Source of the DNA: Clostridia bacterium
GTDB lineage: Bacteria > Bacillota > Clostridia > UBA1381
Assembly: GCA_022768695.1 (NCBI GenBank)
Contig: JALEPO010000022.1
Coordinates: 1 to 42,651 of the forward strand
Length of the DNA stretch: 42,651 nt
Direction of reading: 5' to 3'
Below, in pieces: positions 5,153 through 41,062 of the stretch (positions within the stretch are counted from its first letter, which is position 1; each line of letters begins with the position of its first letter). The notes below the pieces were generated by a model that did not search any database, was not told where the DNA came from, and worked only from the letters and a program-made list of their open reading frames with translations. A program made the translations under genes and the position numbers.

Positions 5153-5947
5153 TTAACCCATTTTTTTTGATTTTTCAATACAAGCTGTTACAGCTTTTAT
5201 AACGCTGCTTCTAAGCCCTGTTTCCTCAAGCACACCCACAGCTTCTATTGTAGTCCCTGCCGGTGAGCATACCATATCTTTCAGCTCGCCCGGATGTTTA
5301 CCTGTTTCAAGAACCATTTTCGCACTTCCAAGCACCGCCTGAGCTGCAAATGTATATGCCTGATTTCTTGGCATTCCTCCCATAACTGCCGCATCTGCCA
5401 TAGCTTCTATAAACATAAATACATATGCCGGCGACGAACCGCTTACGGCAGTTACTGCATCCATAAGATATTCAGGCACTAATTCCGCTTTACCAAAGCT
5501 ATTGAAAATCCGTAGTATATTTTCTTTTTCAGCCTCTGATACATTTTCACTCACAGAAATTGCAGCCATTCCCTCTCCAACCAATGCCGGAGTGTTAGGC
5601 ATTACGCGTATAATTTTTATTCCGCGTTCAAAAGCAGCTGCAAGCTTTGAAATGGACTGCCCTGCAACTATAGATACAATAACAGCATTTTTATTCACCG
5701 TATCTTTTATTTCGTCTATAACCTTATAAACTATATTAGGCTTGACCGCAAGGAATAAAATATCTGCTTTAGCAGCAGTTTCCTTATTGTCTTCTGTTGT
5801 TAAAACGCCATATTTCTCATTTACAGCTTTCAGTCCTGCCTTATTAATATCAGATACAAGAATATCCCCTGGCGCAAAAATGTTATTTGAAACAATACCG
5901 CCTATAATTGCACTGCCCATATTTCCGCTTCCAATAAATCCAATCAT
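5153..5947 (-). CDS. proC: Pyrroline-5-carboxylate reductase
   Basis: ProC reduces 1-pyrroline-5-carboxylate to L-proline with NAD(P)H, the last step of proline synthesis, in the cytoplasm. The 264-residue protein opens with the Rossmann signature MIGFIGSGNMGSAIIGGI, has the conserved VRVMPNTPALVGEGM-like segment (residues about 115-130), and ends with the dimerisation domain containing AVSGSSPAYVF and SPAGTTIEAV. Length is normal. It appears to be a single-gene unit between terminators at 6018-6044 and 4993-5024. Confidence 0.96.
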   Translation of the reverse strand: MIGFIGSGNMGSAIIGGIVSNNIFAPGDILVSDINKAGLKAVNEKYGVLTTEDNKETAAKADILFLAVKPNIVYKVIDEIKDTVNKNAVIVSIVAGQSISKLAAAFERGIKIIRVMPNTPALVGEGMAAISVSENVSEAEKENILRIFNSFGKAELVPEYLMDAVTAVSGSSPAYVFMFIEAMADAAVMGGMPRNQAYTFAAQAVLGSAKMVLETGKHPGELKDMVCSPAGTTIEAVGVLEETGLRSSVIKAVTACIEKSKKMG

Positions 5948-6017
5948 TAAAATACAGCCTTTCCGTCTGCAAATTAAATTACATACTTTCGCCCGCAGAC
6001 AAAGGTGAGTATGAAAA

Positions 6018-6044
6018 CACCCAAAGCCGAAAAAGCTTTGGGTG
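6018..6044 (-). terminator. Terminator after the decarboxylase operon
   Basis: CACCCAAAGC (6018-6027) pairs perfectly with GCTTTGGGTG (6035-6044) around a seven-base loop. On the minus strand the hairpin is followed by TTTTCAT. It lies just after the stop codon of the oadA-like gene. Confidence 0.75.
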
Positions 6045-6053
6045 CTGCAATCA

Positions 6054-7463
6054 TTAAACCGGATAAACCTTATTTTCTCTGTCTACCAAGTCATTATCAA
6101 CCTTATCAAGCTGAGCTTCTCTATATTTAAAGTAATTTACTGCAACCTGACCAAACAAAGCATATGACAATACATCTTCATCCTGTCTGATCCATTCAGC
6201 ACATTCCTTTCTCATATTTTCAAGCTCCGGCTTTAATTGATCTGCCGGACGACAAGTAATTCTTTCCTCATCGCCAATAATCTTTTTAACAATTTCATCC
6301 GAAATTTCTACAGGACACTTTCCGTATTCACCGCGTACAATGCCTTTAGTTTCCTTAGAAATCATCTTATAACGCTCACCCATCAAAACATTAAGTACAG
6401 CCTGTGTACCTACAATCTGTGATGAAGGCGTAACAAGTGGAGGATAACCCATATCAGCACGCACACGAGGAACTTCCTTCAACACCTCGTCAAAGGCATC
6501 TTCTCTGCCCTGCTGCTTTAGCTGAGAAACGAGGTTCGAAAGCATACCTCCCGGAACCTGATACTTCAATGTATTAACATCAACACCCATTACCTTTGCG
6601 TTCATCAAGCCGCTTGCGATATATTTTTCTCTTAACGGCTTGAAATATTCACTGATTTCAACAAGCTTATCAAGATCATAACCTGTATCGTAAGGTGTAC
6701 CCTGTAACGCTGCAACAATAGGTTCAGTAGGAGGCTGTGATGTACCCATAGCCAACGGTGACATAGCACAGTCGATTACATCAACACCAGCCTCAATAGC
6801 CTTCAAGTAAACCATTGATGCTTCACCACTTGTATAGTGAGTATGAAGCTGAATAGGAATCTTAACAGTTTCCTTCATAGCCTTAACAAGATCATATGCC
6901 GTATACGGAAGCAACAAGCCTGCCATATCCTTGATACAGATTGAATCCGCACCCATTTCCTCAAGCTGCTTTGCTAATTTTGTGAAGCTTTCAATATTGT
7001 GAACAGGGCTTATTGTATAACATACGGTCGCCTGAACATGACCCTTTTCCTTCTGACAAGCCTTAATAGCACATTCAAGATTACGCACGTCATTAAGCGC
7101 GTCAAAAATTCTAAGAATATCAATACCGTTTGCTATTGACTTCTGAACAAAATATTCAACAATATCATCTGCATAATGTCTATAGCCAAGAATGTTCTGA
7201 CCTCTGAACAGCATCTGCAAAGGTGTTTTCTTAGCTTTATCCTTTATTTTTCTAAGTCTTTCCCACGGATCCTCGTTCAGGAATCTTAAGCAGGAATCAA
7301 ATGTTGCGCCGCCCCAAGCTTCAAGCGAATGATAACCTACCTCATCAAGCTTTTCAACTATAGGAAGAATTTCATCTGTTGTCATTCTTGTAGCAATAAG
7401 TGACTGATGCGCATCACGAAGGACTGTTTCGGTAATTTCTACCGCTTTGTTTCCTTTTGCCAT
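6054..7463 (-). CDS. oadA: Oxaloacetate decarboxylase alpha / pyruvate carboxylase subunit B (carboxyltransferase)
   Basis: This subunit moves CO2 between oxaloacetate/pyruvate and a biotin carrier. The 469-residue protein has the HMGL-like TIM barrel with the metal and pyruvate site motif TVLRDAHQSLIATRM, the metal ligands in LHTHYTSGEASM, the active-site lysine in CIKDMAGLL, and the conserved carboxylase domain after residue about 300. It lacks the C-terminal biotinyl domain of the full alpha subunit; that domain is a separate gene at 8780. A GTG at 7475 falls inside the ribosome binding site, so the ATG at 7463 is preferred. It is the last gene of a five-gene operon. Confidence 0.92.
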   Translation of the reverse strand: MAKGNKAVEITETVLRDAHQSLIATRMTTDEILPIVEKLDEVGYHSLEAWGGATFDSCLRFLNEDPWERLRKIKDKAKKTPLQMLFRGQNILGYRHYADDIVEYFVQKSIANGIDILRIFDALNDVRNLECAIKACQKEKGHVQATVCYTISPVHNIESFTKLAKQLEEMGADSICIKDMAGLLLPYTAYDLVKAMKETVKIPIQLHTHYTSGEASMVYLKAIEAGVDVIDCAMSPLAMGTSQPPTEPIVAALQGTPYDTGYDLDKLVEISEYFKPLREKYIASGLMNAKVMGVDVNTLKYQVPGGMLSNLVSQLKQQGREDAFDEVLKEVPRVRADMGYPPLVTPSSQIVGTQAVLNVLMGERYKMISKETKGIVRGEYGKCPVEISDEIVKKIIGDEERITCRPADQLKPELENMRKECAEWIRQDEDVLSYALFGQVAVNYFKYREAQLDKVDNDLVDRENKVYPV

Positions 7464-9582: not shown

Positions 9583-11133
9583 TTATACAGGAAGATTTCC
9601 ATGCTTCTTAGCCGGTCTTGATTCACGTTTTGAAGCCAGCATTTCAAGTGCTGCTATAATTCTCGGTCTTGTTGAGTCAGGCTCAATAACATCGTCAATA
9701 TAGCCTCTTCTTGCAGCCTCATACGGTGATGCAAACTTATTTCTGTATTCCTGAATTTTTTCTGATCTTGTAGCAATAGGATCTGAGCTTTCCTTTATAT
9801 CATTCTTAAAAATAATATTAGCAGCTCCCTCAGGACCCATAACTGCAATCTCAGCAGTCGGCCATGCCATAACCACATCAGCGCCAAGATGCTTTGAACT
9901 CATAGCTATATAAGCTCCGCCGTAAGCCTTTCTTGTGATTACATTAATTTTGGGCACTGTAGCCTCGCTGTAAGCATACAAAAGCTTAGCTCCGTGACGA
10001 ATAATACCGCCCTGCTCCTGCTCTACACCCGGAAAATATCCCGGTACATCTGTAAATGTTACCAACGGAATATTAAAGCTGTCGCAGAAACGAATAAATC
10101 TTGCAGCCTTGTCTGATGAATTGATGTCAAGCGAGCCTGCCATTACCTTAGGCTGATTTGCTACAATACCTACAACCTGTCCGTTCATTCTTGCGTAGCC
10201 TACAACAATATTCTGCGCAAAATTCTTCTGAACCTCAAAGAATTCACCGTTATCAACAACTTCCGCAATTACTTCCTTTACATCATACGCCTTATTAGCC
10301 TCGTCAGGAACAATTGTTGTCAATTTTTCTGATAATCTGTTTATTTCATCCGTCGGAGCAACATATGGTGCCTCCTCAAGATTGTTCGAAGGAAGATATG
10401 AAAGCAAAGTCTTAATCTGAGCAATACATTCTTCATCGCTTGCGGCGCTGAAATGTGCAACACCTGACTTTGAACCATGCACACCGGCACCGCCCAAATC
10501 TTCACCTGTTACATCCTCGCCTGTTACTGACTTAATAACCTGAGGACCTGTAATAAACATCTGGCTTGTCTTTTCAACCATGAAAATAAAGTCTGTGATA
10601 GCAGGCGAATAAACCGCACCACCGGCACATGGTCCCATAATTACCGAAATCTGCGGAATCACACCACTGTTACATGTGTTTCTGAAGAAAATTTCTCCGA
10701 ACCCCGAAAGAGCGTCTATTCCCTCCTGAATCCTTGCGCCGCCTGAATCGTTCATGCCAATGATAGGAGCACCCATCTTGGCAGCCATATCCATAACCTT
10801 GCAAATTTTCTTTGCATGCATCTCGCCTAATGAACCGCCAATTACAGTAAAGTCCTGAGCATAAACATACACAAGACGTCCGTCAACAGTACCATAGCCT
10901 GTTACAACACCTTCACCCGGCGCTTCAACGCAGTCCATACCGAACTCCGTACATCTGTGAGTTACAAATGCATCGACTTCAACAAAGCTACCGGCATCAA
11001 GCAAAGCGTTTATTCTTTCTCTTGCCGTTAATTTGTTGGCGTCATGCTGTTTCTTGATTTTAGCTTCTCCGCCGCCTTTTTCAATTACACTTCTGCGGTA
11101 TTGAAGCTCAGTCAACTTATCAACTGTTCCCAT
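9583..11133 (-). CDS. mmdA: Methylmalonyl-CoA decarboxylase alpha / acyl-CoA carboxylase carboxyltransferase
   Basis: The 516-residue protein is a full-length acyl-CoA carboxyltransferase with two crotonase-fold halves. Visible motifs are [13 protein letters not shown] at the N-terminus, the acyl-CoA oxyanion-hole region [22 protein letters not shown], and in the second half [12 protein letters not shown] and [11 protein letters not shown]. In this operon it most likely removes CO2 from methylmalonyl-CoA (giving propionyl-CoA) onto the biotin carrier; a propionyl-CoA carboxylase beta role is the alternative. It is the first gene of the operon, with a GGAGG site and a good promoter upstream. 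Confidence 0.9.
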
Positions 11134-11195
11134 GATTCAACCTCCATTGTGTATAAAATTAGAGATAAAATTTGTAAAATTTATACCTATTGTAT

Positions 11196-11224
11196 ATTAT
11201 AACTTAATTCGAGCAAATTTTCAA
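11196..11224 (-). promoter_or_regulatory. Promoter of the decarboxylase operon
   Basis: On the minus strand TTGAAA (11219-11224) and a perfect TATAAT (11196-11201) are separated by 17 bases. The start would be about 60 bases before the mmdA-like ATG. No riboswitch-like structure was seen in the short leader. Confidence 0.75.
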
Positions 11225-11299
11225 TACATTTTTTAATGTTTACAATTAAAAAATGTGCTGTTTTTAATTTGGTTTTTGTATGACTTATACAAAAATATG

Positions 11300-11322
11300 G
11301 GGTATACTTTTTTTGTATACCC
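11300..11322 (-). terminator. Terminator after the pseudouridine synthase gene
   Basis: GGGTATAC and GTATACCC form a perfect 8-pair stem around seven T residues, and flanking AAAAT/ATTTT extend it. The T tract after it on the minus strand is broken (CATATTTTTG), so termination may be partial. Confidence 0.55.
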
Positions 11323-11334
11323 TACATTTTGTGT

Positions 11335-12057
11335 TTATCTGCCCATAAGATAATTTATTTCATGACTTGTCAGATGACGCCATCTTCCCAGCGGCAGATG
11401 TCCAAGCTCAACAATTCCGATTTTTATACGCTGTAATCCGACCACCTTACAGCCTATCGCTTCAAACATCTTTCTTACCTGCCGATTTTTGCCTTCATGT
11501 ATGGTAATTTTAACAGTTGTCCTTCCATCAAACGCATCAAGTATTTCAACCTCGGCAGGCGATGTTACATAGTCCTCTATTTTTACACCTCTCCTTAAAT
11601 GATTAATACCGCTGATTGTCATTCCGCCTTTTATTGTTGCAATATAAGTTTTATCCATATGGAATTTTGGATGTGTTACACGATAAGTAAAATCACCGTC
11701 ATTAGTAAGCAGCAATAATCCCTCTGTGTCATAATCAAGTCTGCCTACAGGAAATATTCTTGTATCTATATCCTCTTTTATAATATCCACCACAGTCGGT
11801 CTATCGAATTGATCCTTAACTGTAGATACATATCCTACCGGTTTATTAAGCATTATATAATATTTCTTATCCTTAAGTTTTATCGGCTTGTTATCAACAT
11901 CGACTTTATCAGCGCCTATTTCAACCTTCACTCCCTGTTCGGTAACCGTCTTGCCATTCACCTTAACTCTTCCTTCTGCAATAATTCCTTCAGCCGCGCG
12001 TCTTGACGCAATACCGCTCATAGCTATATATTTCTGTAATCTAACTATTTCTCCCAT
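11335..12057 (-). CDS. rluB: rRNA pseudouridine synthase, RsuA/RluB family
   Basis: This 240-residue enzyme isomerises a uridine in ribosomal RNA. It has an N-terminal S4 RNA-binding domain (RLQKYIAMSGIASRRAAE), then the catalytic domain with the signature GRLDYDTEGLLLLTNDG, whose Asp is the catalytic residue, and the C-terminal EGKNRQVRKMFEAIG motif. Length and motifs fit RluB/RsuA; which uridine is modified cannot be decided. It follows the carboxypeptidase gene by 13 bases and is probably cotranscribed, as is common in Clostridia. Confidence 0.93.
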   Translation of the reverse strand: MGEIVRLQKYIAMSGIASRRAAEGIIAEGRVKVNGKTVTEQGVKVEIGADKVDVDNKPIKLKDKKYYIMLNKPVGYVSTVKDQFDRPTVVDIIKEDIDTRIFPVGRLDYDTEGLLLLTNDGDFTYRVTHPKFHMDKTYIATIKGGMTISGINHLRRGVKIEDYVTSPAEVEILDAFDGRTTVKITIHEGKNRQVRKMFEAIGCKVVGLQRIKIGIVELGHLPLGRWRHLTSHEINYLMGR

Positions 12058-12070
12058 TGTCTTTTCCTTT

Positions 12071-13189
12071 CTAAATACACCATATTTTTAATACATTCAA
12101 AAACGTATTGTAAAAGCTGTTTCGCAGCCTTATATCCTTAGCACCTATAACATCGTTTTCCGATATTATATCGACAGTTCCAATCCATTCACCGCCATAA
12201 AAAATATCTGAATACCCTACCTTTTCTCCCGCATTTATCGGACAGTTTAAATTCTCCATCAGGTGGTTTACAATGTCAAAAGAAATTTTTTCTCCTTCCT
12301 TAAACGGAATTATAAAACTGTCTGACGCAATAAACGAATAGGATTTTCCGTCAACATCCGCCTTTTTTATTGTCTGTCCCTTTGATATTACTTCTCTTGC
12401 GGTATATTGCGAAAATGCATAATCAAGCATTTCGGCATGACTGTTCCAATCATCCGAATCATTCAGAGTAACAGCAATAAAAGTCATATTATCTCTCGTG
12501 GCAGCACTTACAAGACATCGCCCCGCTGCTTCTGTGTATCCTGTTTTTATTCCGAAACAGCCCTCGTACATATCCAACAATTTGTTATGGTTAAAAAACC
12601 ATAGTTCTTTATCTTCATCAATCGGATGCACCATCTTAACAGGCGTTGATACAATATTCCAAAATTCCGAATTTCTGATTGCATACCGTGAAATCCATGC
12701 CAAATCCCTTGCTGTTGTAAAATGATCCTGATGAGGTAAGCCATTAGGATTTATAAATGATGTGTCATGCGCGCCTATAGTCCACGCCTTATCATTCATC
12801 TTATCCACAAAAGAAGCCACATCTCCTGATATATGCTCCGCAATTGCCACAGCGGCATCATTACCGGAGTTAAGCATTAGCCCATACAGCAGATCGCGCA
12901 TATACATTCTGCTTCCCGCCTCCACATACGCAGCCGAGCCCTCCTGCATTTGGGCATTCAGACTTATTTCAACAATTTCATCCGGACCACTGTTTTCAAG
13001 CGCTACAACTGCCGTCATAATTTTTGTCGTACTTGCCATAGGCCGACGCTCGTATGCATTCTTTTCAAAAATCATCTCACCCGTGAGAGCGTTCATAACA
13101 CAGGCGCACTCTGCACTGTCAGCTATTGCAAATGCCGTCTTTGGCAGCAGCATGCATATAACAGCAGCAAAAAAAATATATCTCCTCAT
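12071..13189 (-). CDS. D-alanyl-D-alanine carboxypeptidase, family S11
   Basis: This penicillin-binding protein trims the terminal D-Ala of peptidoglycan stem peptides outside the membrane. The 372-residue product starts with a signal peptide (MRRYIFFAAVICMLLPKTAF). It has all three active-site motifs: SxxK as S53-T-T-K, SxN as SGN in LNSGNDAAVA, and KTG in GIKTGYTEAAGR. A C-terminal beta domain (PBP5-like) follows. The ATG at 13189 has a GGGGA site; upstream in-frame starts lack one. It resembles DacF/DacB; which paralogue is uncertain. Confidence 0.92.
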   Translation of the reverse strand: MRRYIFFAAVICMLLPKTAFAIADSAECACVMNALTGEMIFEKNAYERRPMASTTKIMTAVVALENSGPDEIVEISLNAQMQEGSAAYVEAGSRMYMRDLLYGLMLNSGNDAAVAIAEHISGDVASFVDKMNDKAWTIGAHDTSFINPNGLPHQDHFTTARDLAWISRYAIRNSEFWNIVSTPVKMVHPIDEDKELWFFNHNKLLDMYEGCFGIKTGYTEAAGRCLVSAATRDNMTFIAVTLNDSDDWNSHAEMLDYAFSQYTAREVISKGQTIKKADVDGKSYSFIASDSFIIPFKEGEKISFDIVNHLMENLNCPINAGEKVGYSDIFYGGEWIGTVDIISENDVIGAKDIRLRNSFYNTFLNVLKIWCI

Positions 13190-13266
13190 TTTTCCCCAAA
13201 ACCTTTCACGCATTTTACTATATATAAATATATGTAAAAATAAATTAAAATAACCTATATATTTTA

Positions 13267-13295
13267 TTGACAAATCAAAATAAATCTGTTATAAT
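13267..13295 (+). promoter_or_regulatory. Consensus promoter of tRNA-Leu
   Basis: A perfect TTGACA (13267-13272) and a perfect TATAAT (13290-13295) are 17 bases apart, about 28 bases before the tRNA gene. This is a full consensus housekeeping promoter, as expected for a stable RNA. Confidence 0.85.
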
Positions 13296-13323
13296 ATAAT
13301 ACGTTGTGTTGATAACTTCATTT

Positions 13324-13407
13324 GCGAGGGTGGCGGAATAGGCAGACGCGCACGTTTGAGGGGCGTGTGGTTTTACCGTGCCGGTTCAAGTCCGGTCCCT
13401 CGCACCA
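13324..13407 (+). tRNA. tRNA-Leu (anticodon GAG)
   Basis: The acceptor arms GCGAGGG and CCCTCGC pair fully, followed by discriminator A and an encoded CCA. The D arm is GCG/CGC, and the anticodon loop TTGAGGG carries GAG at 13358-13360. A long variable arm typical of class II tRNAs is present, and the T loop is TTCAAGT. It reads CUC/CUU leucine codons. Confidence 0.95.
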
Positions 13408-13410
13408 AAA

Positions 13411-13436
13411 AGTACGGATTATTCCGTACTTTTTTT
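13411..13436 (+). terminator. Terminator of tRNA-Leu
   Basis: AGTACGGA (13411-13418) pairs with TCCGTACT (13423-13430) around a four-base loop and is followed by an unbroken T tract. It lies three bases after the CCA end. Confidence 0.9.
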
Positions 13437-13518
13437 CTGAAATATATTGTATCATAAAACACATTATCTGACAAGTTGTATCATCTATAAAAAAAAATAT
13501 ATTTTTTCAAAAAAAGTA

Positions 13519-13547
13519 TTGACAAACATTTTCTTTTGTGGTATTAT
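13519..13547 (+). promoter_or_regulatory. Promoter of tRNA-Gln
   Basis: TTGACA (13519-13524) and TATTAT (13542-13547) are 17 bases apart, so this tRNA has its own promoter independent of tRNA-Leu, whose terminator lies upstream. Confidence 0.8.
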
Positions 13548-13566
13548 ATAACTCGTCAGTTGAGAT

Positions 13567-13640
13567 TGCGGATTTGTGTAAAGGTAGCACTAACGACTCT
13601 GACTCGTTCTGTCCGGGTTCGAATCCTGGATCCGCAGCCA
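13567..13640 (+). tRNA. tRNA-Gln (anticodon CTG)
   Basis: The acceptor arms TGCGGAT and ATCCGCA pair, including the weak first U-A pair typical of tRNA-Gln, followed by G and an encoded CCA. The anticodon stem AACGA/TCGTT encloses CTCTGAC, with CTG at 13599-13601. The T arm has GGTTCGAATCC. It reads CAG codons. Confidence 0.94.
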
Positions 13641-13643
13641 AAT

Positions 13644-13687
13644 AAGAACGGTAATTTTGATAAAAAATTACCGTTCTTCTTTTTTGC
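13644..13687 (+). terminator. Terminator of tRNA-Gln
   Basis: A 15-base perfect inverted repeat (13644-13658 with 13664-13678) is followed by a T-rich tract to 13687. It starts four bases after the tRNA 3' end. A separate smaller hairpin, AAAACAGC/GCTGTTTT, follows at 13691-13714. Confidence 0.88.
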
Positions 13688-13733
13688 CCGAAAACAGCGT
13701 AGGTATGCTGTTTTGGGATATAAGGCATAGTAA

Positions 13734-13770
13734 AAGACCGACCTTGGGCAACGGAAAGTCGGTCTTATTT
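13734..13770. terminator. Terminator shared by the tRNA and the peptide-export operon
   Basis: AAGACCGAC (13734-13742) pairs with GTCGGTCTT (13758-13766). T residues follow on the plus strand (ATTTTTGTTTT) and TTTT on the minus strand. It is the only good minus-strand hairpin after the double-glycine peptide gene, so it probably ends that operon. The 130 bases between it and the peptide stop codon hold no recognisable feature. Confidence 0.6.
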
Positions 13771-13900
13771 TTGTTTTGGGGTGGGTTTGAGAAAACTGGC
13801 GTGTTTCCTTTTGTGGTAATCGTGTTTCTTTTCGCTATTTAAAATTGTCGTTTAGCTATCTAAGACTATGACATTCCTTTAAAGACTCGGATTTTTCAAA

Positions 13901-14053
13901 TCAAACCTTTCCCTTTGTATCCTCGCTTATAGGCACTGTACCTGTATATGAAACATTTTCAATCGAACCGCCCGTAACCTCGGATAAATCCTCTAAATTA
14001 ACATCTTGAATTTCTGCTTCTTCCTCGGTTGTTACTTTCTTTTCATCTGACAT
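13901..14053 (-). CDS. Double-glycine leader peptide (candidate exported peptide precursor)
   Basis: This is a 50-residue gene with a strong AAAGGAGGA site nine bases before its ATG. The leader (residues 1-29) is acidic and hydrophilic and ends in VNLEDLSEVTGG. Counted from the cut site, GG is at -2/-1 with hydrophobic residues Val -4, Leu -7 and Val -12, the classical pattern recognised by C39 peptidases. The predicted mature part (residues 30-50) starts SIENVSY and ends TKGKV. It has no cysteine, so lanthionine or disulfide bridges are impossible, and it is not especially hydrophobic. It is the last gene of an operon encoding a C39-type exporter. A signalling peptide or bacteriocin-like product are both possible. 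No homologue is recognised. Confidence 0.8.
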   Translation of the reverse strand: MSDEKKVTTEEEAEIQDVNLEDLSEVTGGSIENVSYTGTVPISEDTKGKV

Positions 14054-14085
14054 AATTTTTGTCCTCCTTTACTCATTTACTACGC

Positions 14086-14132
14086 GGAGCATGGAGTGTG
14101 GAATTTATATAAACAATTCCACTCTCCACTCC
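14086..14132 (-). promoter_or_regulatory. Long hairpin between the giant gene and the peptide gene
   Basis: The 100-base gap contains a stem of 13 positions with one mismatch (14093-14105 with 14115-14127), extended by GGAG/CTCC (14086-14089 with 14129-14132). No T tract follows on the minus strand, so it is not a normal terminator. It could stabilise or process the mRNA so that the peptide is made in a different amount from the giant protein. Related GGAGTG-like units repeat around it. Confidence 0.5.
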
Positions 14133-14153
14133 TAACACTCCACGCTGAAATTA

Positions 14154-17100
14154 TTATTTTGAGCTTTCAATAAATCTTTCAACTATTGCCGCAGACTCGG
14201 CTCTTGTAGCGTTATCATCAGGCTTAAACTCGTTATTTTCATTTCCGTGCATAATGCCCTTAAGCTTACAGAACATAACAGCCTCAACTGCCCAATCGCA
14301 AATATCACCCAAATCCGCATAATCAAGTCTAATTGCCCACGCTCCCTCCGGCGCTGTTTTCTTAAACTGTGCAAATCTGAACATAATTGCCGCAATCTGC
14401 TCTCTTGTGATGTTATCGTCCGGAGCAAATTCCGTATCGCTGTATCCCTTTACGATACCGTTTTCCTTTGCCCATGCTACAGCACTTTCATAGTAGCTAC
14501 CGCTTATAACATCGTCAAAGCCGTTTTCAGCCGTTATTTCAGGCTCGCCCTCGGTGCGATAGAGAACTGTTACAAGCATTGCTCTTGTCATTGGATCGTA
14601 CGGTGCAAACTCATTCTCCGAAACACCGCTGAACAGATTGTTTTCATGTACATATCTTACTGAATTTGCGAACCAGTCATTTTCCGAAACATCCTTGAAC
14701 GGATTTACATATACATCACTGTCAGTCTTTGTTGGATTTTCTGTATTCTGCGGTACTTGCTTATTCTCTGTCCACTTAGCATAAAGCTTAATGTTTGATG
14801 TAATCTTTGTATCTGTCGCAAACGGCTTTGTAAGAGCTTCATCTGTGTACCAGCCCTCAAAGGTATAGCCTTCCCTTGTTGGTACGGGCAGTTCGGAAAC
14901 AGTTCCGTTCTTATTCAACTTTATGCTGTCTACACTTACTCCCTCACCGCCGTCAAATGTTACGGTATATGAGGTTGAACCGCCGCCGCTGCTGCCGCTG
15001 CTGCTGCTCGATCCCGCCGATACATTTACCGTCGCCGAAACTGTCTTATGCAAATATGACGGAATTTCAGAAAGCATATTATCAACGGTTGATGAACCGT
15101 CATACGCGAATACAATCGACTGAACATCGGGAACAACGTATCCTGTCAATGTCGCTTTACCGTTGCCAACCGCGCAGAGAGTACCGTCCTCTCTGACATA
15201 GACAACATTGCTGTTGTCGCTTTCCCATACAACCTTGACTTTGTCGCTCGCCTCACCTGTAATTACTGTATCAATGCTTATATCATCAAGATATTTTGCC
15301 GAAATCGTCTTTTCGTCCTTTAATGAAACGTCTGTGATTTTCGACATCGTTTCTATCGCATCAGCATCAAATAACTTGTAAGCGTTCGTTTCAATAGAAA
15401 TAACCTCATCGCCGTCAGCCTCAACAACTGCTATAATATTAGCTGTACCGTTGCCGCCGTCAATCTGATATGCACTGTCAGGGATTGATATTGCTCCGCC
15501 GATTATCTCTGTTGAATTTTCTGCAATTGAGTCAACAGAAAGCTCTGCAATTGGCTCCTCGCTCTTTTCTCCGTCTTTTACGGTGTACAGCTTAACTGTA
15601 ACCGCACCTGTCGGAATGTTACCGTCATTTCTTAATGGAAGTGACAGCTCGTGTCCTGTTGTCTTTTCCTCAATAGTCGCTTCACCGTCAGAAATTACAT
15701 CGTATTCCTTAACCGCCTTGAATGTCTGATTAATTACCGTTTCTCCAACTGTGATTTCCGCATTGAATGTTAAATCATCGCTTATCTCGCTTATCGGAGT
15801 TACATTTACTGACGCGCTCATTGTCTTGCCCGCGCCCCAATGATAATCGAGTGTCTGCTCGCCAAGCTCTGTCACCTTGCCGTTTGATGTCATTGTAAAG
15901 CGGAACTTAACAGGCTCGTGTATGAACTTAACGCCCTCGTTCTTCACTGTTGATGTAAGCGTAAACGGTGTGTTGGGGTAAACGTAATTTGTATCAATCG
16001 CAAGCGCGTTTTCCTCTGCCGTTACAGGCTTTGAATACGGTGTGTGCTTGAGAATTACCATACTTGTATTGTCCTCGTCAAGTGATACTAATTCTCCATC
16101 TTCAATATACGGAGTTTTGTCCGCCGCAACATACAGCTCGCCGCCTACAACAGCAGTATCAATACTGCTGTACGCTGTTGACGGTACGCTTGTGAGCATA
16201 AACGGCTCACTCCAGCCGGTTTCGCTTGTTTCGTCCTCATCTGCGACAACATCATATATTGCCGTAAATACTTGTCTTTGCGTTGTGTCGCCGTTTACAG
16301 AATCTGTCCATGTAAGGTACATTCTTTCGTTCTCGTCAACGTCAACGCTGTAATTGTTAACATAGCCGTCCATAGTAACAGCATATTCAGGCTGAATGTT
16401 TATCGTAACCTCATGCTCCGGAATTGTCACGCCCTCAGATGTTTCTGTTTCAGCAATGGTGTCGTTGTACTGAAGTACATAATACTGTGTATTGCCGTTT
16501 TCAACAAGCTTGTATTGGCTGTTCTTTATCGGCTCTGTTACATTTACATACGCAATTCCGCTTGTTTCCTCGTCACCGCCGTCAAGATCGCCTGCCGCCG
16601 CAAAGAACAGATATGTTTTATCATTGTATCTGCCGAAATGCGGTGTTGAATACGCGCCCGTATTCGTCGTCATTTTGATTATGTGCGTAAAGCTGTTTTC
16701 CGCAAAGTTGTAAATCTGCATAAGAATATCTCTGTCATCGACAGTATTCATATCCTTGTCATAATCAACCGTCCATGCGTAAAGCGCAAGACCGTTGTAA
16801 TAGCATACATCAGCGTCAACTATTCTGTGCATATTGCCGCTTGTCTTGTTTATTCTTGTATCAAGAAATCTCTGACCGTACCATTCAGTTTTGTACGTTT
16901 CCTTATCCGTAATGCCGCCAAGCTCATCATCTGTGTAGCTTGTTTCGTCATTCCACTTGCCGTTTTCATAGAAGCGGTACGCAATTACAGACGGAGCGTT
17001 CAAAAGGTCTGTCAACTTGTCGACATCCTTATACTCTGTCTTTGTGTAGTAGAGAATAATTCTGTCTGTTTCACTGTCATATGCCGCCTTCGGCTCTGTG

Positions 17101-22137: not shown

Positions 22138-24264
22138 TTATGCTTTTTGTCGTCTTATGAACTGCTTTAGCAATCCATCTGTGCTTTTCAGCTCATCAAA
22201 TGTGCCTTCCTGCACAATCACCCCCTTATCCATAACCAAAATTCTATCGCAATGCTCAATTGTCGATAAACGATGTGCCACAATAATTTTGGTACATTTT
22301 AGTTTATTCACGCTTTCGGTAATTTGTGTCTGCGTAATATTGTCAAGCGCGGATGTCGCCTCGTCAAAAATAAGTATTGACGGCTTTGATATAATTGCTC
22401 TTGCAATAAGCAGTCGTTGTCTTTGCCCACCCGACAGAGTGCAGTTTTCCTGACTTACGGGAGTATGTACTCCCATTGGCAGCGCGGCTATATCGTCGCT
22501 CAGTCCCGCCAGTTCTATGGCTTCGTTTACCTCATCCATAGTCGCGTCGAGCTTTGTTATCGTGATGTTTGAATAAATATCACCCGATATAAGTCCGCTG
22601 TTTTGTAAAACCGCTCCGATTTTTTTTCGGTAGCTTTTCAGGTCAAGCTCCCGTATATCAAAGCCATCTATATAGATACTGCCCTCGTTTGCATTTTCAA
22701 ATCCGAGCAGCAATCTTATCAAGGTTGATTTTCCGCAGCCGGACGTGCCGATAATTCCGACGCTTTCGCCCGACCGTATATGTGCCGATAAACCGTTCAA
22801 AACATACGGCGTATCCTTGTCATATCTAAAATACAAATCTGATACCGAAATTTCACCGCTGAGCGCTTCGGGCTTTTGCTTATCCTCGCCGTACTCCTCG
22901 CACTCGCCATTTAACATCGGCAAAAGCTGTGAATACAATGCACGAAACGCCGAAATGGTCTGTATAATAGTTGAAATTCCACCGCTTGATGCAATATACG
23001 CACCATAAGCCGCCGAAAATGCTATATAGTTTGCCGTACCAAGACGTGAGCCTACTATAAATATAACAGCTGTCGAAAATATGGTAATCATTTTATAAAA
23101 TACATCTGCGTATCTTAAGAAAAACGGCTTATCCTCGTTTCGTGACGCATTTAAATAATACTTGCTCCAGCGACGCATCATTCTCGCCTCCGCGCCGTTT
23201 AGCTTTACCTGCTCAATCCCCGAAAACAGCTCATAGCAAAAGCCTGACATCTCGGACAGCGAGGCGGAATATTTTCGCATCCATATCGAATTTAACACGC
23301 CCTCCGTTATCATCATAGCACCGAGTATCACCGTCACAAGTATTACCCAACCGAGCATTTGTGGTGCATATATGTAAATCTGTATAAGGTACAAAATCGA
23401 CAGCGTCATGCTTATGCACACACTTATGCTCCTTACCGAAACAATCCTCGATATGTCCGAAAACTGCATGATCATTCGCGACAGCTCGCCCGATTTTATA
23501 TTCTTGAAAAACTCTGTTTTTAGGCTCAGAAGCCGTGAAAATATACCGCTTTGTATATATGCGCTCGTCCGAAGCATTGAATTTGTAAGTATAAGTGACT
23601 GCATAAGTCCAAGCACCGCCGACACCATCACCGCCGAAAATATAAGCACCGCAGTCGGTATCATGCCATCCATCTCTCCTGTAGGTACAACCATTGAAAA
23701 TATAAAACGGTTTGCCCACGGCAGCAGCATACCCGCAAGTATTGTCAGCACTCCCATGCACAATACCGCCGCTCTGTCCTTAACGGCTGTACACCCCAGC
23801 ATAAAGCCAATAAGCTCACGCTCTGTTATTTTGCCGTTTTTCATTACCTTGTAAAAGCACATCGCACTTTTGGTAAACCGCTCCGAAATTTCCACCGTCA
23901 CCCTTGTTTCCTTACCGTTTTCAATAAAAACACAGCTGCCGTTTGTATTCGGAATTACAACAACCCATCTCTCGTCCTTTGTCTTGACTATCATAGGCAC
24001 AGCCACCGTTTCATACCAATCATCGTCAAGCTCCGTATAACGTGTTTTTATAAAACATTCTTCCTCAATGTATTTTAACTGCTCCGCTAAAGAAAGCTTT
24101 GAATTTACCCTTTTTTTCTCATTCAGAAATTTCAACACCGCGTTAATTCCGTCATTTTCCGATTTATTGTTGAGCACGGACTTCATATTTTGGTATGCCT
24201 GATATTGAACATCACGATTTTTTTGTTGTATACGCTTGGTTTCTTCATTTATTTGTGTTTTCAC
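22138..24264 (-). CDS. NHLM-type ABC transporter, permease/ATPase without peptidase
   Basis: The 708-residue protein has a long soluble N-terminal region (about residues 1-155), a six-span ABC exporter membrane domain, then an ATPase domain. Walker A is GTSGCGKST, the signature is LSGGQRQRL, and Walker B is ILIFDEATSALD. The architecture matches the second ABC subunit of NHLM (nitrile-hydratase-leader microcin) export systems, which lacks C39. It starts with GTG one base after the stop of the C39 transporter gene, with an AAGGAGCG site inside that gene, so the two are translationally close and probably form a heterodimer. Confidence 0.88.
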   Translation of the reverse strand: MKTQINEETKRIQQKNRDVQYQAYQNMKSVLNNKSENDGINAVLKFLNEKKRVNSKLSLAEQLKYIEEECFIKTRYTELDDDWYETVAVPMIVKTKDERWVVVIPNTNGSCVFIENGKETRVTVEISERFTKSAMCFYKVMKNGKITERELIGFMLGCTAVKDRAAVLCMGVLTILAGMLLPWANRFIFSMVVPTGEMDGMIPTAVLIFSAVMVSAVLGLMQSLILTNSMLRTSAYIQSGIFSRLLSLKTEFFKNIKSGELSRMIMQFSDISRIVSVRSISVCISMTLSILYLIQIYIYAPQMLGWVILVTVILGAMMITEGVLNSIWMRKYSASLSEMSGFCYELFSGIEQVKLNGAEARMMRRWSKYYLNASRNEDKPFFLRYADVFYKMITIFSTAVIFIVGSRLGTANYIAFSAAYGAYIASSGGISTIIQTISAFRALYSQLLPMLNGECEEYGEDKQKPEALSGEISVSDLYFRYDKDTPYVLNGLSAHIRSGESVGIIGTSGCGKSTLIRLLLGFENANEGSIYIDGFDIRELDLKSYRKKIGAVLQNSGLISGDIYSNITITKLDATMDEVNEAIELAGLSDDIAALPMGVHTPVSQENCTLSGGQRQRLLIARAIISKPSILIFDEATSALDNITQTQITESVNKLKCTKIIVAHRLSTIEHCDRILVMDKGVIVQEGTFDELKSTDGLLKQFIRRQKA

Positions 24265-24265
24265 G

Positions 24266-26410
24266 TTAGTTCACGCTCCTTACAAGCGTGTAATACGCCC
24301 CTTTTTTCGCCATAAGATCCTCATGCGTTCCTCTCTCAACTATTTTGCCTTGATCCATAACTATAATCTCGTCGCTGTCCATAATCGTCGATAATCTGTG
24401 TGCAATAACTATTGTTGTAATCCCGAGAGCCTTTATGTTATTCATAACACGCTCCTCGGTGTCACTGTCGAGACTGCTTGTTGCCTCGTCCATAATAATT
24501 AATGACGGCTTTTTCACGATTGCTCTTGCGATTTCTATACGCTGCCGCTGACCGCCCGAAAAGTTTCTGCCGTTTTCCGTAACGTGCTCACGATACCCGC
24601 CCTTGCGGCTTATAATATCGTCATGTATACACGCCGCCTTTGCCGCCGCAACAACATCATCATACGAAATACTGTCATCCCACATTGTTATATTGTCAAG
24701 CACCGTTCCCTCAAAAAGGCGGATATTCTGACTTACCACAGCAATTTTTGAATAAAAGAAATAGTGGTTAAGCTCACAGCGGCGACTGCCGTTAAATGTG
24801 ACAGTGCCGCCGTTTTCCTCATACAGACCACCGATAATTTTTGCAACGGTCGATTTTCCGCTGCCGCTTGCGCCGGTAATTGCAGCTCTGCCGCCCTTTT
24901 TAATTGTCAGATTAAAATCCTTTATAAGCGGCTCATCAATAGGATTATATCCGAAGCTGATATTTTCAAGCCTTATATCACCGTCAATTCCGCTTTTCTG
25001 TTCGCTGCTGTCATCAAGAAATTTTTCGTCCTTGCCGTAGTGCATGACATCATTTGTGCGTACAGCGTCACCCTTCATCGTCTGTATTTCTATTCCGGCA
25101 TTGACTGCCGCTCCCACAGGTGCAAGCATTGCCGCGACAAGTGATTGCGTTGCTATAAGAATACCTGTAGTCATACTTCCCGACAATATTTTCCACACTC
25201 CGAAAATCAGCACCATACCTGATCCGAGCATATTCAAAAGCGAAAACAAGCTTGCGGTATAAACACTTGTTTTATCAATATCTGTTTTTGTGTTTATTGT
25301 CTGAGTACCCGATGCCATAAGACACACAAAAGCTCCGTCCTCCGCGCCACAGGATTTTATTGTTTCTATCATATCAACAGTTTGTGAAATATCACTTTGC
25401 AGAGCACCCATATCACGGATGTATGAGCGCATTTTTTCCTCGTACCTTTTTGAGCTTATAAGCATTGACACAATATTGACAGCCGCACATATTACACCAA
25501 TAAACGCGATATGTACATCAAGAAACGCAATCAAGTTAAAATATACAAAAATCTGCAAAATATATCCCACGATAGGCGAGAGCATACGCACAAGCTTTGC
25601 GCCCATGAGCATATTGGCGCTCTGTCTGCTTGATAAATCACCCTCACGACGCTGTGTGAAAAATTCAATCGGAAGCTTCATTAGATGTTCTATAAATCCC
25701 GCATTTATTAGCATATTAAGCTTTTTTTCTATTGTGTGTCTTATATTTTCGGTTAAAAACATTGACGATGCCGATATAAGTCCGGCACAAATAAGCGTCT
25801 GCAATATAATTCTTAAAGTTCGCGTGTTACCGGCTATAAGTGTCCTCTCGATAAATACCGAGTTTAGAAGCATCACACCTCCGCTGCCGATAATCGCGCA
25901 CAGCTCAAGCATTACGAAATAAATAATATTTGGCAAGAACGATGTCATACATGACAATATGTAGTCTTTTTTATGTACTCCGTCCTTGTCACGCTTGAAG
26001 TCTTTTGTCGGAGTGAGCTCAATTGCTATACCCGTAAATGATTTTGAAAACTCCTCCGGTGACACCCTTCTCAATCCATAAGCCGGATCGGCTATGACAG
26101 CTCTGTCCTTTTTGTCAAAGCCGCACAGCACTAAGAAATGATCCATATTCCAATGTATAATCGCGGGCGTTTTTAACTGCTTTGCGCCCTTGATATTTAC
26201 ACGAACCGCTCTCGGCTTTAAATCGTGAAACTGTGCCGCCTTTACAATATTTTTTGCATTTACTCCGTTTCTCGATACTCCACACTCACGTCGCAGCTCC
26301 TCAAGCGTCACTGTTTTTCCGTAGTATTCAAGTATCATTGCGAGTGATGCGGCACCACATTCCGTAGCCTCCATCTGAAGTATAGGACGTACTTTTTTCA
26401 CCTTGCTCAT
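24266..26410 (-). CDS. Peptidase-containing ABC transporter (C39, NHLM type)
   Basis: This 714-residue transporter cleaves and exports peptides with double-glycine leaders. The N-terminal C39 peptidase (residues 1-140) has oxyanion-hole Gln12, catalytic Cys18 in MEATECGAASLAM, His91 in HWNMDHFLVL and Asp108 in IADPAYG, so the triad is complete. A membrane domain follows, then the ATPase with Walker A GASGSGKST, signature FSGGQRQRI and Walker B LIIMDEATSSLD. The N-terminal segment resembles the NHLM peptidase/ATP-binding family. The peptide at 13901 in the same operon is its most obvious substrate. Confidence 0.93.
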   Translation of the reverse strand: MSKVKKVRPILQMEATECGAASLAMILEYYGKTVTLEELRRECGVSRNGVNAKNIVKAAQFHDLKPRAVRVNIKGAKQLKTPAIIHWNMDHFLVLCGFDKKDRAVIADPAYGLRRVSPEEFSKSFTGIAIELTPTKDFKRDKDGVHKKDYILSCMTSFLPNIIYFVMLELCAIIGSGGVMLLNSVFIERTLIAGNTRTLRIILQTLICAGLISASSMFLTENIRHTIEKKLNMLINAGFIEHLMKLPIEFFTQRREGDLSSRQSANMLMGAKLVRMLSPIVGYILQIFVYFNLIAFLDVHIAFIGVICAAVNIVSMLISSKRYEEKMRSYIRDMGALQSDISQTVDMIETIKSCGAEDGAFVCLMASGTQTINTKTDIDKTSVYTASLFSLLNMLGSGMVLIFGVWKILSGSMTTGILIATQSLVAAMLAPVGAAVNAGIEIQTMKGDAVRTNDVMHYGKDEKFLDDSSEQKSGIDGDIRLENISFGYNPIDEPLIKDFNLTIKKGGRAAITGASGSGKSTVAKIIGGLYEENGGTVTFNGSRRCELNHYFFYSKIAVVSQNIRLFEGTVLDNITMWDDSISYDDVVAAAKAACIHDDIISRKGGYREHVTENGRNFSGGQRQRIEIARAIVKKPSLIIMDEATSSLDSDTEERVMNNIKALGITTIVIAHRLSTIMDSDEIIVMDQGKIVERGTHEDLMAKKGAYYTLVRSVN

Positions 26411-26422
26411 AACACGCCCCCT

Positions 26423-27304
26423 TTAAAAGACACATTGATACGGTCTGCACTTATCTATAATAATATACGCACTGCAAATTGTTCCCATAACAACTTCAAT
26501 ACTGTCACTTACAGAATTTGACCATTTAAGATGGCTCGGCGCTTGGGCATCGGGGATAAGCGTTATTTCAAGCCGCAAATAGCTTTCCCTTTCATCAAGC
26601 GAGGACAAAAACAGCTTGCTGTTATTTTTTTTGATGTCCTCTCCCATAATCGGATACGACGAAATTCCGGAAACGTACGCTTTTATGTAGCCGTACTTTT
26701 CACGCGGAGCAAATTCGGGCATTACCTGCGCTTCCATACCGAGAGTAACAAGTCCGCCGCTTTTTGCCGGAATGAACGCTGTCAGCGTTTTGTTGTTTCC
26801 GTTCTCACTGTACGGAACAACCTCTGCAACACGCTCTCCTTTATTAATATATGAATTTTCATCTGCGATATATATAACAATACCGTCTATATTGGAACGT
26901 ATAAGCGACATTTTGTCATACTCGTCATACAAACGTTCAAGCTCCTCGTTTGATATTTTCTCCGCTTTTCCTCTCTCTGCCTTTGACAGTATTTCCTTGT
27001 TTGGAATAACAGCCAAAACATCTCCGGCTTTTACCTTGTTGCCAACAGACACCACAGACCTCGTCATAGTGCCTGACGATACCGCATACACCTCTCCGTC
27101 AGATTGTGCGGGCCATACAACACCGTTTACAGGTACTTTCTCATACACAGTTCCAAACATCAGCCACATCGCAAACACTCCCGTACACAATACAAGTATT
27201 GCGACAAATACACCTGTGCGAATGTTGACGGCTCGTATACCTTTATATATTCTCGAATTTGACGAAAAGCTCTCTATCGCTTCCTCTCTGAATAAACTCG
27301 CCAT
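26423..27304 (-). CDS. HlyD-family secretion adaptor (NHLM type)
   Basis: The 293-residue membrane fusion protein has one N-terminal span (about residues 28-50, TGVFVAILVLCTGVFAMWLM), then the lipoyl/barrel hybrid domain (GTMTRSVVSVGNKVKAGD). Only a very short helical hairpin is present, followed by the second lipoyl half (SNIDGIVIYI) and beta barrel. Such proteins link ABC exporters to the outside in both Gram types. The ATG at 27304 is chosen because AGGAG lies eight bases upstream; a GTG at 27313 overlaps that site. It starts five bases after the lipoprotein stop codon, so coupling is likely. Confidence 0.87.
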   Translation of the reverse strand: MASLFREEAIESFSSNSRIYKGIRAVNIRTGVFVAILVLCTGVFAMWLMFGTVYEKVPVNGVVWPAQSDGEVYAVSSGTMTRSVVSVGNKVKAGDVLAVIPNKEILSKAERGKAEKISNEELERLYDEYDKMSLIRSNIDGIVIYIADENSYINKGERVAEVVPYSENGNNKTLTAFIPAKSGGLVTLGMEAQVMPEFAPREKYGYIKAYVSGISSYPIMGEDIKKNNSKLFLSSLDERESYLRLEITLIPDAQAPSHLKWSNSVSDSIEVVMGTICSAYIIIDKCRPYQCVF

Positions 27305-27309
27305 ACATC

Positions 27310-28455
27310 TCACTCCTGTTCTGCGAACTTATACTCCGTTGCTGTGCCAGTTGCTTCAAATACATAATATATTTCGCTTTTTTGTGTCTGCGCTCCATAC
27401 TCGTCAAATCCAAAATCCTGAATCAGACCTCTGTAGCCGTTTTTATGCAAAAGCTGTGCAATTTCCAATGAATTACAGGTTTTGTTTTCAATTGCCGTAT
27501 CCGCTGCCATTCTGAATGCGTTATAGCCTTGAAAATACCATGAGTCAAGGTCTTTTCCCGTTGTATTTTTATATTCCTTTAATATTTCCGTCAATCTGAC
27601 TTTATCTTCACCATTTAAAATACGCTTCGGAAATTCGTCTGCTATTATAAAGCCTGTCATTGCCTGTCTAAGTTCTTCATCGGCAGCTAAAAGACTGCTG
27701 TTGTCAAACGCCGTATCGCCTCCGCACACAAGCTGCGGATTTCGGCGTTTAAGCATTTTTAAAATTTCAAACCCTTCATTGCTCCGAGGAAGCATTATAA
27801 CGCCCTCTACTCCGAGAGCTTCCCAGCGCTTATATGTTTCATCAAATTTATTCTTAATTGATACTATATCGGCACAATCCACTACCGTTATTCCGTCATT
27901 CTCCCTGTATTGCAAAAAGCCGTTCATTTCCGCACGTTCAAATTCACTGTCGGCGGTACATACCGCCCACCGCCGCGCGTCCGTTTTGGCTGCCGCTTGT
28001 CTTAGCATCTCACCGACTGTTTTTGCGGAATGACACATTGAAAGTACAGTGGTGTAATGATTATCACTGTATACGCTGTCATACAAAAAATACGGCACAA
28101 TAAACAGCTTCTTTTTCTTATCAAAAATGTATGCCGCCGTTTTGTTTATTTCCATATTCGAAGCGCCTATTACCGCTGTAACACTCTTGTCGTCACTAAG
28201 CTCGTCAATAATTGTCGAGCCCCTTTCATAGCTGCCGCCGTCATCATAAAATTCATATTCAATATTATATCCGCTGTCCTCATATTCACTCTTTACATCC
28301 TCTGCCGCTTTTTCTATACCTTCTTTAAACCCCGGATAAAATTTGGCATCGTTGCCCATAATCGCAATTTTTACGGTCTGCGTTTTGTTTTCGGAACAGC
28401 CTGTCATAATAAACAGAACAAGAGCAAGAACGAAAACTATATATCCTTTTTTCAT
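27310..28455 (-). CDS. Substrate-binding lipoprotein, periplasmic-binding family 6-like
   Basis: The 381-residue protein starts with a lipoprotein signal (MTGC lipobox, Cys20), so it is tethered outside the membrane. The rest resembles the branched-chain amino-acid receptor fold: VKIAIMGNDAKFYPGFKEG at the start, TAVIGASNM in the first lobe, GVEGVIMLPRSNEG and CGGDTAFDNS in the second. No import permease or ATPase accompanies it. Being first intact gene of an export operon, it may sense a ligand, perhaps the exported peptide or a wall fragment; that is inference. Confidence 0.82.
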   Translation of the reverse strand: MKKGYIVFVLALVLFIMTGCSENKTQTVKIAIMGNDAKFYPGFKEGIEKAAEDVKSEYEDSGYNIEYEFYDDGGSYERGSTIIDELSDDKSVTAVIGASNMEINKTAAYIFDKKKKLFIVPYFLYDSVYSDNHYTTVLSMCHSAKTVGEMLRQAAAKTDARRWAVCTADSEFERAEMNGFLQYRENDGITVVDCADIVSIKNKFDETYKRWEALGVEGVIMLPRSNEGFEILKMLKRRNPQLVCGGDTAFDNSSLLAADEELRQAMTGFIIADEFPKRILNGEDKVRLTEILKEYKNTTGKDLDSWYFQGYNAFRMAADTAIENKTCNSLEIAQLLHKNGYRGLIQDFGFDEYGAQTQKSEIYYVFEATGTATEYKFAEQE

Positions 28456-39437: not shown

Positions 39438-41039
39438 TTATTCTTTAGATAAAATAATTGTATTCCATGGCGCATTCTGAACAAATAGAAATCCACCGTT
39501 ATTATATAGTTCATTATATTGCTCATCATTGATGTTATATGTTTCTTTGTTTTTTTCCGTGATTTCATGATCTTCATACACTATTATTTTATTAAATAGC
39601 TTTGAAAGTCCCTCTGCTGTTATTCCTGTTTCATATAACCTTTGAATACATTGCTCATACTGTTCAGATGGTACGATTGATTTATTGCGTTCAATTTCAC
39701 TTTGCAACAAGCCTATCTTGTTGTGCAAATTCATTATTTCATCAGTTATGGGTTTTGATTTTTCGGCAAACATAAAATCAGGCAATAACCCCTTAAGCTT
39801 ATCTTCATACAGAATATCAAATCGCTTTTGTAATAACCTTTCTTTATCATAAAGGTTTAATATCGTTTCCTTCGTATGAGCCAATTCCTTATCAACATCT
39901 ATTGACTTGAGAACTTCATTCTTAAAATCTTCATCTTTCATAAATTGGCATATATAGTTCATTATAATATTTTTTATATTCTCATAATAAACTGCGTGTG
40001 GTTTACAGCCCCAATTCTTACGAAGCTCATCCTTTATATTTCCTTCTCGATTATGCTTTGCACATACATATTTTACCGGTTTATCATTTTGTCGTGTTCT
40101 TAAAACAATACTTTTACCGCATCTTCCGCAAAACATTAACCCTGAAAGCGGATTAAAAGTTGGTTTTCGGCTCGGAATTTTAAATGACTTCAACCTCATT
40201 TGTATATAATTAAATATATCTTCACTAACTAAGGCTTCATGATGATTATGTATTACAATTTGATTTTCCTTGGGAACATTTCTGTATTTTTTACTTTTAT
40301 AGCTGACTTTTTCTATTTTTCCTGCAATTTGTGTCCCTGTGTAAACGGGATTTTTCAATATACGTCTTACATTATCTCTTGTCCATATCGGATTGACTAT
40401 TTTTCTTGTTGTGCTATGTCCCTCTGACGGACTTGCTGCGTGTACAATATTAAGATAGTCCGATATTTGAGCAGGAGTACTTCCATCATAAGACATTTCA
40501 AATATCTTTTTAACAATTGGAGCAGCATTAGGATCCGGAACCATAACACCATTTTCTTTCATGTAGCCAAATGGTGGTACAATGACTAAACCGTTCTCTA
40601 ATTTATGCCTTAAAACTCGTCTTATCTTAATACTGTCATCCTTTGCTCTACGTTCATTAAACCACGCTATCAACGGAAAAAGTTCTGGATTGAATTCCTC
40701 ACTTTCAAACATAATTTGAACTTCTTGTTCTTGAGCAAATTCAATAAATTTCAGACTTTCCAGTAGATTACGACCTAACCTGGATGAATCCTTACATATA
40801 AATATGTCAATCTCACCGTTTTTCATCATTTTTTTTATATCATCTAATCTCTTAAATGATGTTCCTGAAAGGTTATCGTCCATTATAACATCTACAATGC
40901 TATTTAATCCGTTTTTCTCGCAGAATTCAAGCAATATATCTCTCTGCGTTTCTATTCGTTCATAGTTTTCTCCGTAATCATCCCTGCTTTCTCTGCAATA
41001 AACTAAAACCTTTTTATTTGTTTGATATTCAGCACTCAT
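39438..41039 (-). CDS. Large serine recombinase (site-specific integrase)
   Basis: The 533-residue protein has an N-terminal resolvase domain with the catalytic serine Ser18 in VLVYCRESRDD and the conserved SRLGRN segment. A recombinase domain (PFGYMKENG, WTRDNVRRILKNPVYTG), a zinc ribbon (LMFCGRCGKSIVLR with a later cysteine pair) and a C-terminal coiled coil (about 380-460) follow. This order is that of large serine integrases of phages and integrative elements. The ATG at 41039 has a perfect GGAGGAG site six bases upstream. Its 3' end abuts the broken zupT gene, as expected at an attachment junction. Confidence 0.93.
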   Translation of the reverse strand: MSAEYQTNKKVLVYCRESRDDYGENYERIETQRDILLEFCEKNGLNSIVDVIMDDNLSGTSFKRLDDIKKMMKNGEIDIFICKDSSRLGRNLLESLKFIEFAQEQEVQIMFESEEFNPELFPLIAWFNERRAKDDSIKIRRVLRHKLENGLVIVPPFGYMKENGVMVPDPNAAPIVKKIFEMSYDGSTPAQISDYLNIVHAASPSEGHSTTRKIVNPIWTRDNVRRILKNPVYTGTQIAGKIEKVSYKSKKYRNVPKENQIVIHNHHEALVSEDIFNYIQMRLKSFKIPSRKPTFNPLSGLMFCGRCGKSIVLRTRQNDKPVKYVCAKHNREGNIKDELRKNWGCKPHAVYYENIKNIIMNYICQFMKDEDFKNEVLKSIDVDKELAHTKETILNLYDKERLLQKRFDILYEDKLKGLLPDFMFAEKSKPITDEIMNLHNKIGLLQSEIERNKSIVPSEQYEQCIQRLYETGITAEGLSKLFNKIIVYEDHEITEKNKETYNINDEQYNELYNNGGFLFVQNAPWNTIILSKE

Positions 41040-41062
41040 AAATAACTCCTCCAAAATAAAAA

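Follow-up and report, generated by a model that had tools for sequence, protein, structure and literature searches.

A double-glycine peptide family encoded behind giant SLH surface proteins in uncultured Clostridia

A peptide gene closes a six-gene exporter operon

The window analysed here is a 42,651-nucleotide stretch of a Clostridia bacterium genome (contig JALEPO010000022.1 of assembly GCA_022768695.1). It carries a compact six-gene operon on the minus strand, in the order lipoprotein, HlyD adaptor, C39-ABC1, ABC2, giant surface protein and, as the last gene, a small peptide (Table 1). Translated over 50 codons from the ATG at 14053, the precursor reads MSDEKKVTTEEEAEIQDVNLEDLSEVTGG (leader) followed by SIENVSYTGTVPISEDTKGKV (core); the plus strand in the same frame over 13901..14053 is full of stops. 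An AGGAGG motif (14068..14063) is found 9 nt ahead of the ATG, and a comparable ribosome site precedes nearly every related peptide gene. The leader ends in TGG and bears hydrophobic residues at V(-4), L(-7) and V(-12), and also at I(-15). The core SIENVSYTGTVPISEDTKGKV has no cysteine and a net charge of -1. Neither NCBIfam nor Pfam gave a family match for the peptide. The original prediction, which named no strand, had placed a 50-residue double-glycine peptide gene at exactly these coordinates, with a strong ribosome site, hydrophobic residues at -4, -7 and -12, GG at the predicted cut and a mature part of 21 residues, free of cysteine and not strongly cationic. The frame, the leader motif, the C39 transporter of the same operon and the conservation described below all agree with it. 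Its remark that the gene is too short for ordinary gene calling was overstated: 50 codons lie above the usual minimum of gene finders, and Prodigal takes genes from 90 nt upward.

Table 1. Features of the cassette in the window.
Feature	Position	Strand	Details
Double-glycine precursor peptide gene, 50 aa	13901..14053	minus	ORF, homologues, leader motif
Leader, 29 aa	14053..13967	minus	
Core, 21 aa	13966..13904	minus	
Stop codon of peptide gene	13903..13901	minus	
Shine-Dalgarno AGGAGG of peptide gene	14063..14068	minus	read directly
Strong RNA hairpin between giant and peptide genes	14082..14145	minus	-35 kcal/mol, z = -6.1, no T-run
Giant surface protein, 2655 aa	14154..22121	minus	Sec-type N-terminus, Calx-beta, InlB-type repeat, 3 SLH domains
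ABC exporter subunit 2, permease/ATPase, NHLM ABC2-like	22138..24264	minus	596.7 bits to TIGR03797 (cut-off 709.4)
ABC exporter subunit 1, N-terminal C39 peptidase, NHLM ABC1-like	24266..26410	minus	741.3 bits to TIGR03796 (cut-off 853.3)
HlyD-type adaptor	26423..27313	minus	122.4 bits to TIGR03794 (cut-off 156.2)
Lipoprotein, periplasmic-binding-protein fold (Peripla_BP_6 / ANF_receptor), first cassette gene	27310..28455	minus	

The ABC1 subunit contains a Peptidase_C39 domain (E=1.7e-35) in which the Cys, His and Asp are legible. With its three parts (C39-ABC1, ABC2 and HlyD adaptor) the exporter resembles the NHLM systems, whose models TIGR03794, TIGR03796 and TIGR03797 are its best NCBIfam matches. 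Unlike in those systems, none of the three proteins reaches its curated cut-off (Table 1), and the substrate leader, of 24-31 residues among relatives, is not the long NHLP/Nif11 leader, nor is any such precursor encoded beside the cassette. On these sequence grounds we do not classify the cassette as a strict NHLM member. No immunity or modification gene and no lanthionine enzyme was recognised in the operon with Pfam and NCBIfam, and no import permease lies beside the lipoprotein.

Between the giant and peptide genes the window holds a strong RNA hairpin. It occurs once in the genome and is hence not a dispersed repeat, an origin that we had considered; most relatives have gaps too short to accommodate it. 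The hairpin could give the giant and peptide genes different transcript levels. Elsewhere in the window, an ORF at 39438-41054 (minus strand) resembles a large serine recombinase and has no evident element in its surroundings.

The peptide belongs to a family under purifying selection

By profile search the peptide occurs in 17 of the 70 host-family genomes, and it extends to several further families of this class, so that the frame, whose loss in close relatives was to count against the gene, is conserved. A direct protein search found six further copies in five other host-family genomes, all of them immediately following a giant SLH gene. For a scan of named genomes the query was a segment of ABC2, the peptide being too variable for its profile to serve there; wherever the host was named, the extra cassettes came from uncultured gut or rumen Clostridia, including Candidatus Ornithomonoglobus and one Monoglobus-like genome. 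The close hosts are all uncultured metagenome-assembled genomes, and the single-contig genome of the Monoglobus-containing family (G240) gave no match, leaving no cultured host identified.

The 32 members that we collected share a strict leader pattern: positions -4, -7 and -12 are hydrophobic in 32/32, positions -5, -6, -8 and -9 in 0/32, and position -15 in just 16/32. The leader terminus is GG (or GA/GS) in every member, and the core spans 20-25 residues. There are two main core types, A (S-I-x-N-V-x-Y-T-x-T-x-x-I-S-x-D-T-x-x-K-I) and B (A-F-D-N-V-P-R-V-P-E-H-x-I-D-D-S-L-R-x-K-I), plus two others, B2 and C. Comparing leader with core, as had been proposed, we found the core constrained at least as much as the leader: pN/pS was 0.44 for the leader and 0.35 for the core in type A, and 0.23 and 0.20 in type B, all rough values since synonymous sites are near saturation. 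Codon changes between relatives are thus mainly synonymous, and the core is under purifying selection.

One could suspect that so short an ORF, set apart in the window from the giant gene by an extra hairpin, is spurious or decaying. Purifying selection across 32 members, a recurrent position, a ribosome site and the leader motif refute this, and the ORF is a real gene. A sequence at L049 (G071; 4747-4842), considered as an orphan peptide, was rejected as a deletion remnant, in which the giant and the exporter have evidently been lost and the tail of the peptide left behind, fused to the neighbouring gene.

The full gene order from lipoprotein to peptide recurs in L065, L041, L046, L050, L071, L014+L008, L017+L012, L107, L113 and L133. 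In the 70 host-family genomes, the exporter subtype (ABC2, about 530-600 bits to TIGR03797) was present in 16 of the 17 genomes with the peptide vs 2 of the 53 others (Fisher p=1e-12). In the one exception, G017, the assembly is in 470 pieces. The lipoprotein accompanied the peptide in 17/17 genomes vs 2/53 others (p=2e-14). In one locus (L082 of G070, 5497-6662) the lipoprotein is split in two overlapping ORFs, by frameshift or assembly error, and the exporter is otherwise intact. In a complete 5.5 Mb genome (L147 of G266; 10992-12131 and 12143-15598), a homologue of the lipoprotein comes after an NHLM-type exporter and is itself followed by several Nif11-like double-glycine precursors. The lipoprotein is thus not specific to the peptide, and its type belongs more widely to NHLM operons.

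Core types follow the giant protein and not the exporter

The strongest clue to the role of the peptide, which the original prediction missed, is its tie to the giant SLH protein encoded upstream. The distance between the two genes, measured in 26 loci, runs from -8 to +100 nt with a median of 19 nt; in one genome (G015) the two are separated by a gene of 956 aa. Only genomes that bear the peptide contain giants with a score of 445 bits or more against the profile of the conserved segment. Genomes without it do carry more distant giants, and among 12 of these related proteins with readable 3' ends no double-glycine peptide was found within 500 nt. Two loci (L011 and L043) hold a second pair of giant and peptide, apart from the exporter. 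Searching inside the giants for motifs like the core yielded only chance-like matches.

The most conserved segment of the giant coincides with a predicted beta-propeller, at about residues 1540-1880, for which AlphaFold returned a model with pLDDT 77 and pTM 0.78. A sequence search of solved structures with this segment found no match. The nearest folds to the model were beta-propellers of the sialidase/arabinanase type at a low TM of about 0.4, and we do not claim an enzymatic role from a structural similarity of this size.

We then asked the trees of the giant and of the exporter which of the two the core types follow. On the giant tree (FastTree, with long branches flagged) the four core types required 3 changes, the minimum, compared to 10.3 when types were shuffled (0/200 shuffles as low), and type A formed one fully supported clade. 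On the exporter tree they required 8 changes vs 8.9 in shuffled data (60/200 as low). Both main types are present within single genera: g10 has A in G030 and B in G023, g15 has A in G082 and B in G076, and in g14 G068 is of type A and the remaining members of type B. Because core types track the giant and not the exporter, and mix within genera, modules of giant and peptide appear to have been swapped behind a shared exporter, with a constant leader and a specific core. A match between core type and giant is expected from linkage too, the genes being adjacent, so that it supports a physical partnership but does not prove it.

Proposed role of the peptide and its alternatives

At the sequence level the family has the defining features of double-glycine peptides exported by C39 transporters and fits among them. 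Like PCAT/AMS peptides (ComC, BlpC, VP1, BriC and LahA-type), it combines a short double-glycine leader, hydrophobic at -4/-7/-12, with a C39-peptidase ABC transporter in the operon. The same hydrophobic pattern has been described as the one recognised by the C39 protease domains of PCATs (PMC10885120; PMC7018657). Unlike PCAT/AMS peptides, it comes with an obligate giant SLH partner that its core type follows, and with no recognised immunity or modification gene.

The reading that we favour, to which we give about an even chance, is that the peptide is processed by C39, exported and dedicated to the giant. The C39 domain of the ABC1/ABC2/HlyD exporter would bind the amphipathic leader through positions -4, -7 and -12 and cut after GG, and the exporter would send out the 21-residue core. 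The giant would leave by Sec and be anchored on the cell wall through its SLH domains. Outside the cell, the core would act as the dedicated partner of the giant, either as a ligand or as a short segment completing or regulating it. Where a GHKL/LytTR two-component system lies next to the cassette, as in some lineages, it may serve to detect the peptide or to control the cassette. The leader-processing step is well supported by the motif and the operon, from which we infer it; for the partner step the evidence is the pairing, with core types tracking the giant, and it makes partnership the most likely role. More tentatively, there may be a whole clade of giant SLH proteins, each with its own co-transcribed peptide, sent out by a separate C39 exporter, whose core completes or switches the giant at the wall. 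It is possible too, in such an assembly or gating scheme, that one type of leader and exporter serves interchangeable modules of giant and peptide.

A role in signalling, as in the three-component pheromone systems Com, Blp and plantaricin, has to be weighed against this. There, too, a double-glycine peptide leaves by a C39 exporter, and the ComC/ComDE and BlpC/BlpHR pheromone systems offer a precedent (PMC7595303) for an exported core that a membrane GHKL kinase and a LytTR regulator sense, in our case controlling the cassette and the giant. Such a pair of genes adjoins the cassette in G030, G082, G073/G071 and L134, and a regulator alone, at the contig end, in G076. L134 and G073 have orthologous kinases, 53% identical, although the exporters of the two cassettes share only about 35%. 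Overall, about 7 GHKL matches fall within 10 kb of cassettes, where their density predicts 0.9 at most, and this linkage in several loci suits a signalling role equally well. However, independent cases among the linked loci number about 5, the window and most cassettes have no two-component system nearby, and G015 and G091 have the cassette yet no GHKL match at the threshold used. The giant is, moreover, a constant partner, which sets the cassette apart from the three-component systems. Pheromone cores usually diversify, but here the core is strongly conserved and nearly invariant across genera (AFDNVPRVPEH..IDDSLR.KI). The pheromone-like role of the original prediction is consistent with the regulators beside relatives' cassettes, found above chance, and fits poorly with their absence from the window and with the unusual conservation of the core; we consider it possible, though less likely than a partnership with the giant.

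Other roles are far less probable. Exporters of the C39/NHLM type often carry bacteriocins and RiPPs, and the precursor has a canonical leader, so a small peptide with bacteriocin or other antagonistic activity could leave by this route. Yet the core is short, near-neutral, free of cysteine and strongly conserved, the operon has no recognised immunity or modification gene, and the peptide is inseparable from the giant. The marks of class II bacteriocins and lantibiotics (a cationic or cysteine-containing core, an immunity gene, lanthionine enzymes) were not found. An antagonistic role is thus unlikely, and strongly so in our estimate, in line with the original prediction that the product is neither a lantibiotic nor a typical pore-former. 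Alternatively, the peptide, released inside or outside the cell, could mainly regulate the exporter or the lipoprotein, for instance as a ligand of the latter, with no relation to the giant. The lipoprotein is present in all 17 genomes with the peptide and has a binding fold of the amino-acid/receptor type without an import permease. This reading seems to us quite improbable: core types show no relation to the exporter tree, extra peptide copies go with giants and not with exporters, and the lipoprotein homologue of L147 pairs with unrelated substrates of the Nif11 type.

Double-glycine peptides are familiar as pheromones and as bacteriocins. The pairing described here ties one family of them, over several bacterial families, to giant surface proteins of a single type. 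If functional, it would give such peptides a third role and offer a way into the biology of large surface proteins without known function in gut and rumen Clostridia. No description of such a cassette was found in the literature searched (double-glycine, SLH, Calx-beta, PCAT mining and Monoglobus S-layer; few subscription papers).

Genomic surroundings of related giants

Tandem giants are another recurrent arrangement. In L179, L180 and L181, the gene for another very large Sec-type protein starts no more than about 13 nt behind a distant giant without a peptide, and in L181 the two overlap. Giants also adjoin NRPS genes in L015, L010 (G004), L074 (G015) and L183 (G067). In G004 and G015, both of which have the peptide, the NRPS cluster also includes two ketosynthase genes, an SDR gene and a membrane protein, which in G004 is LGT-like by Pfam.
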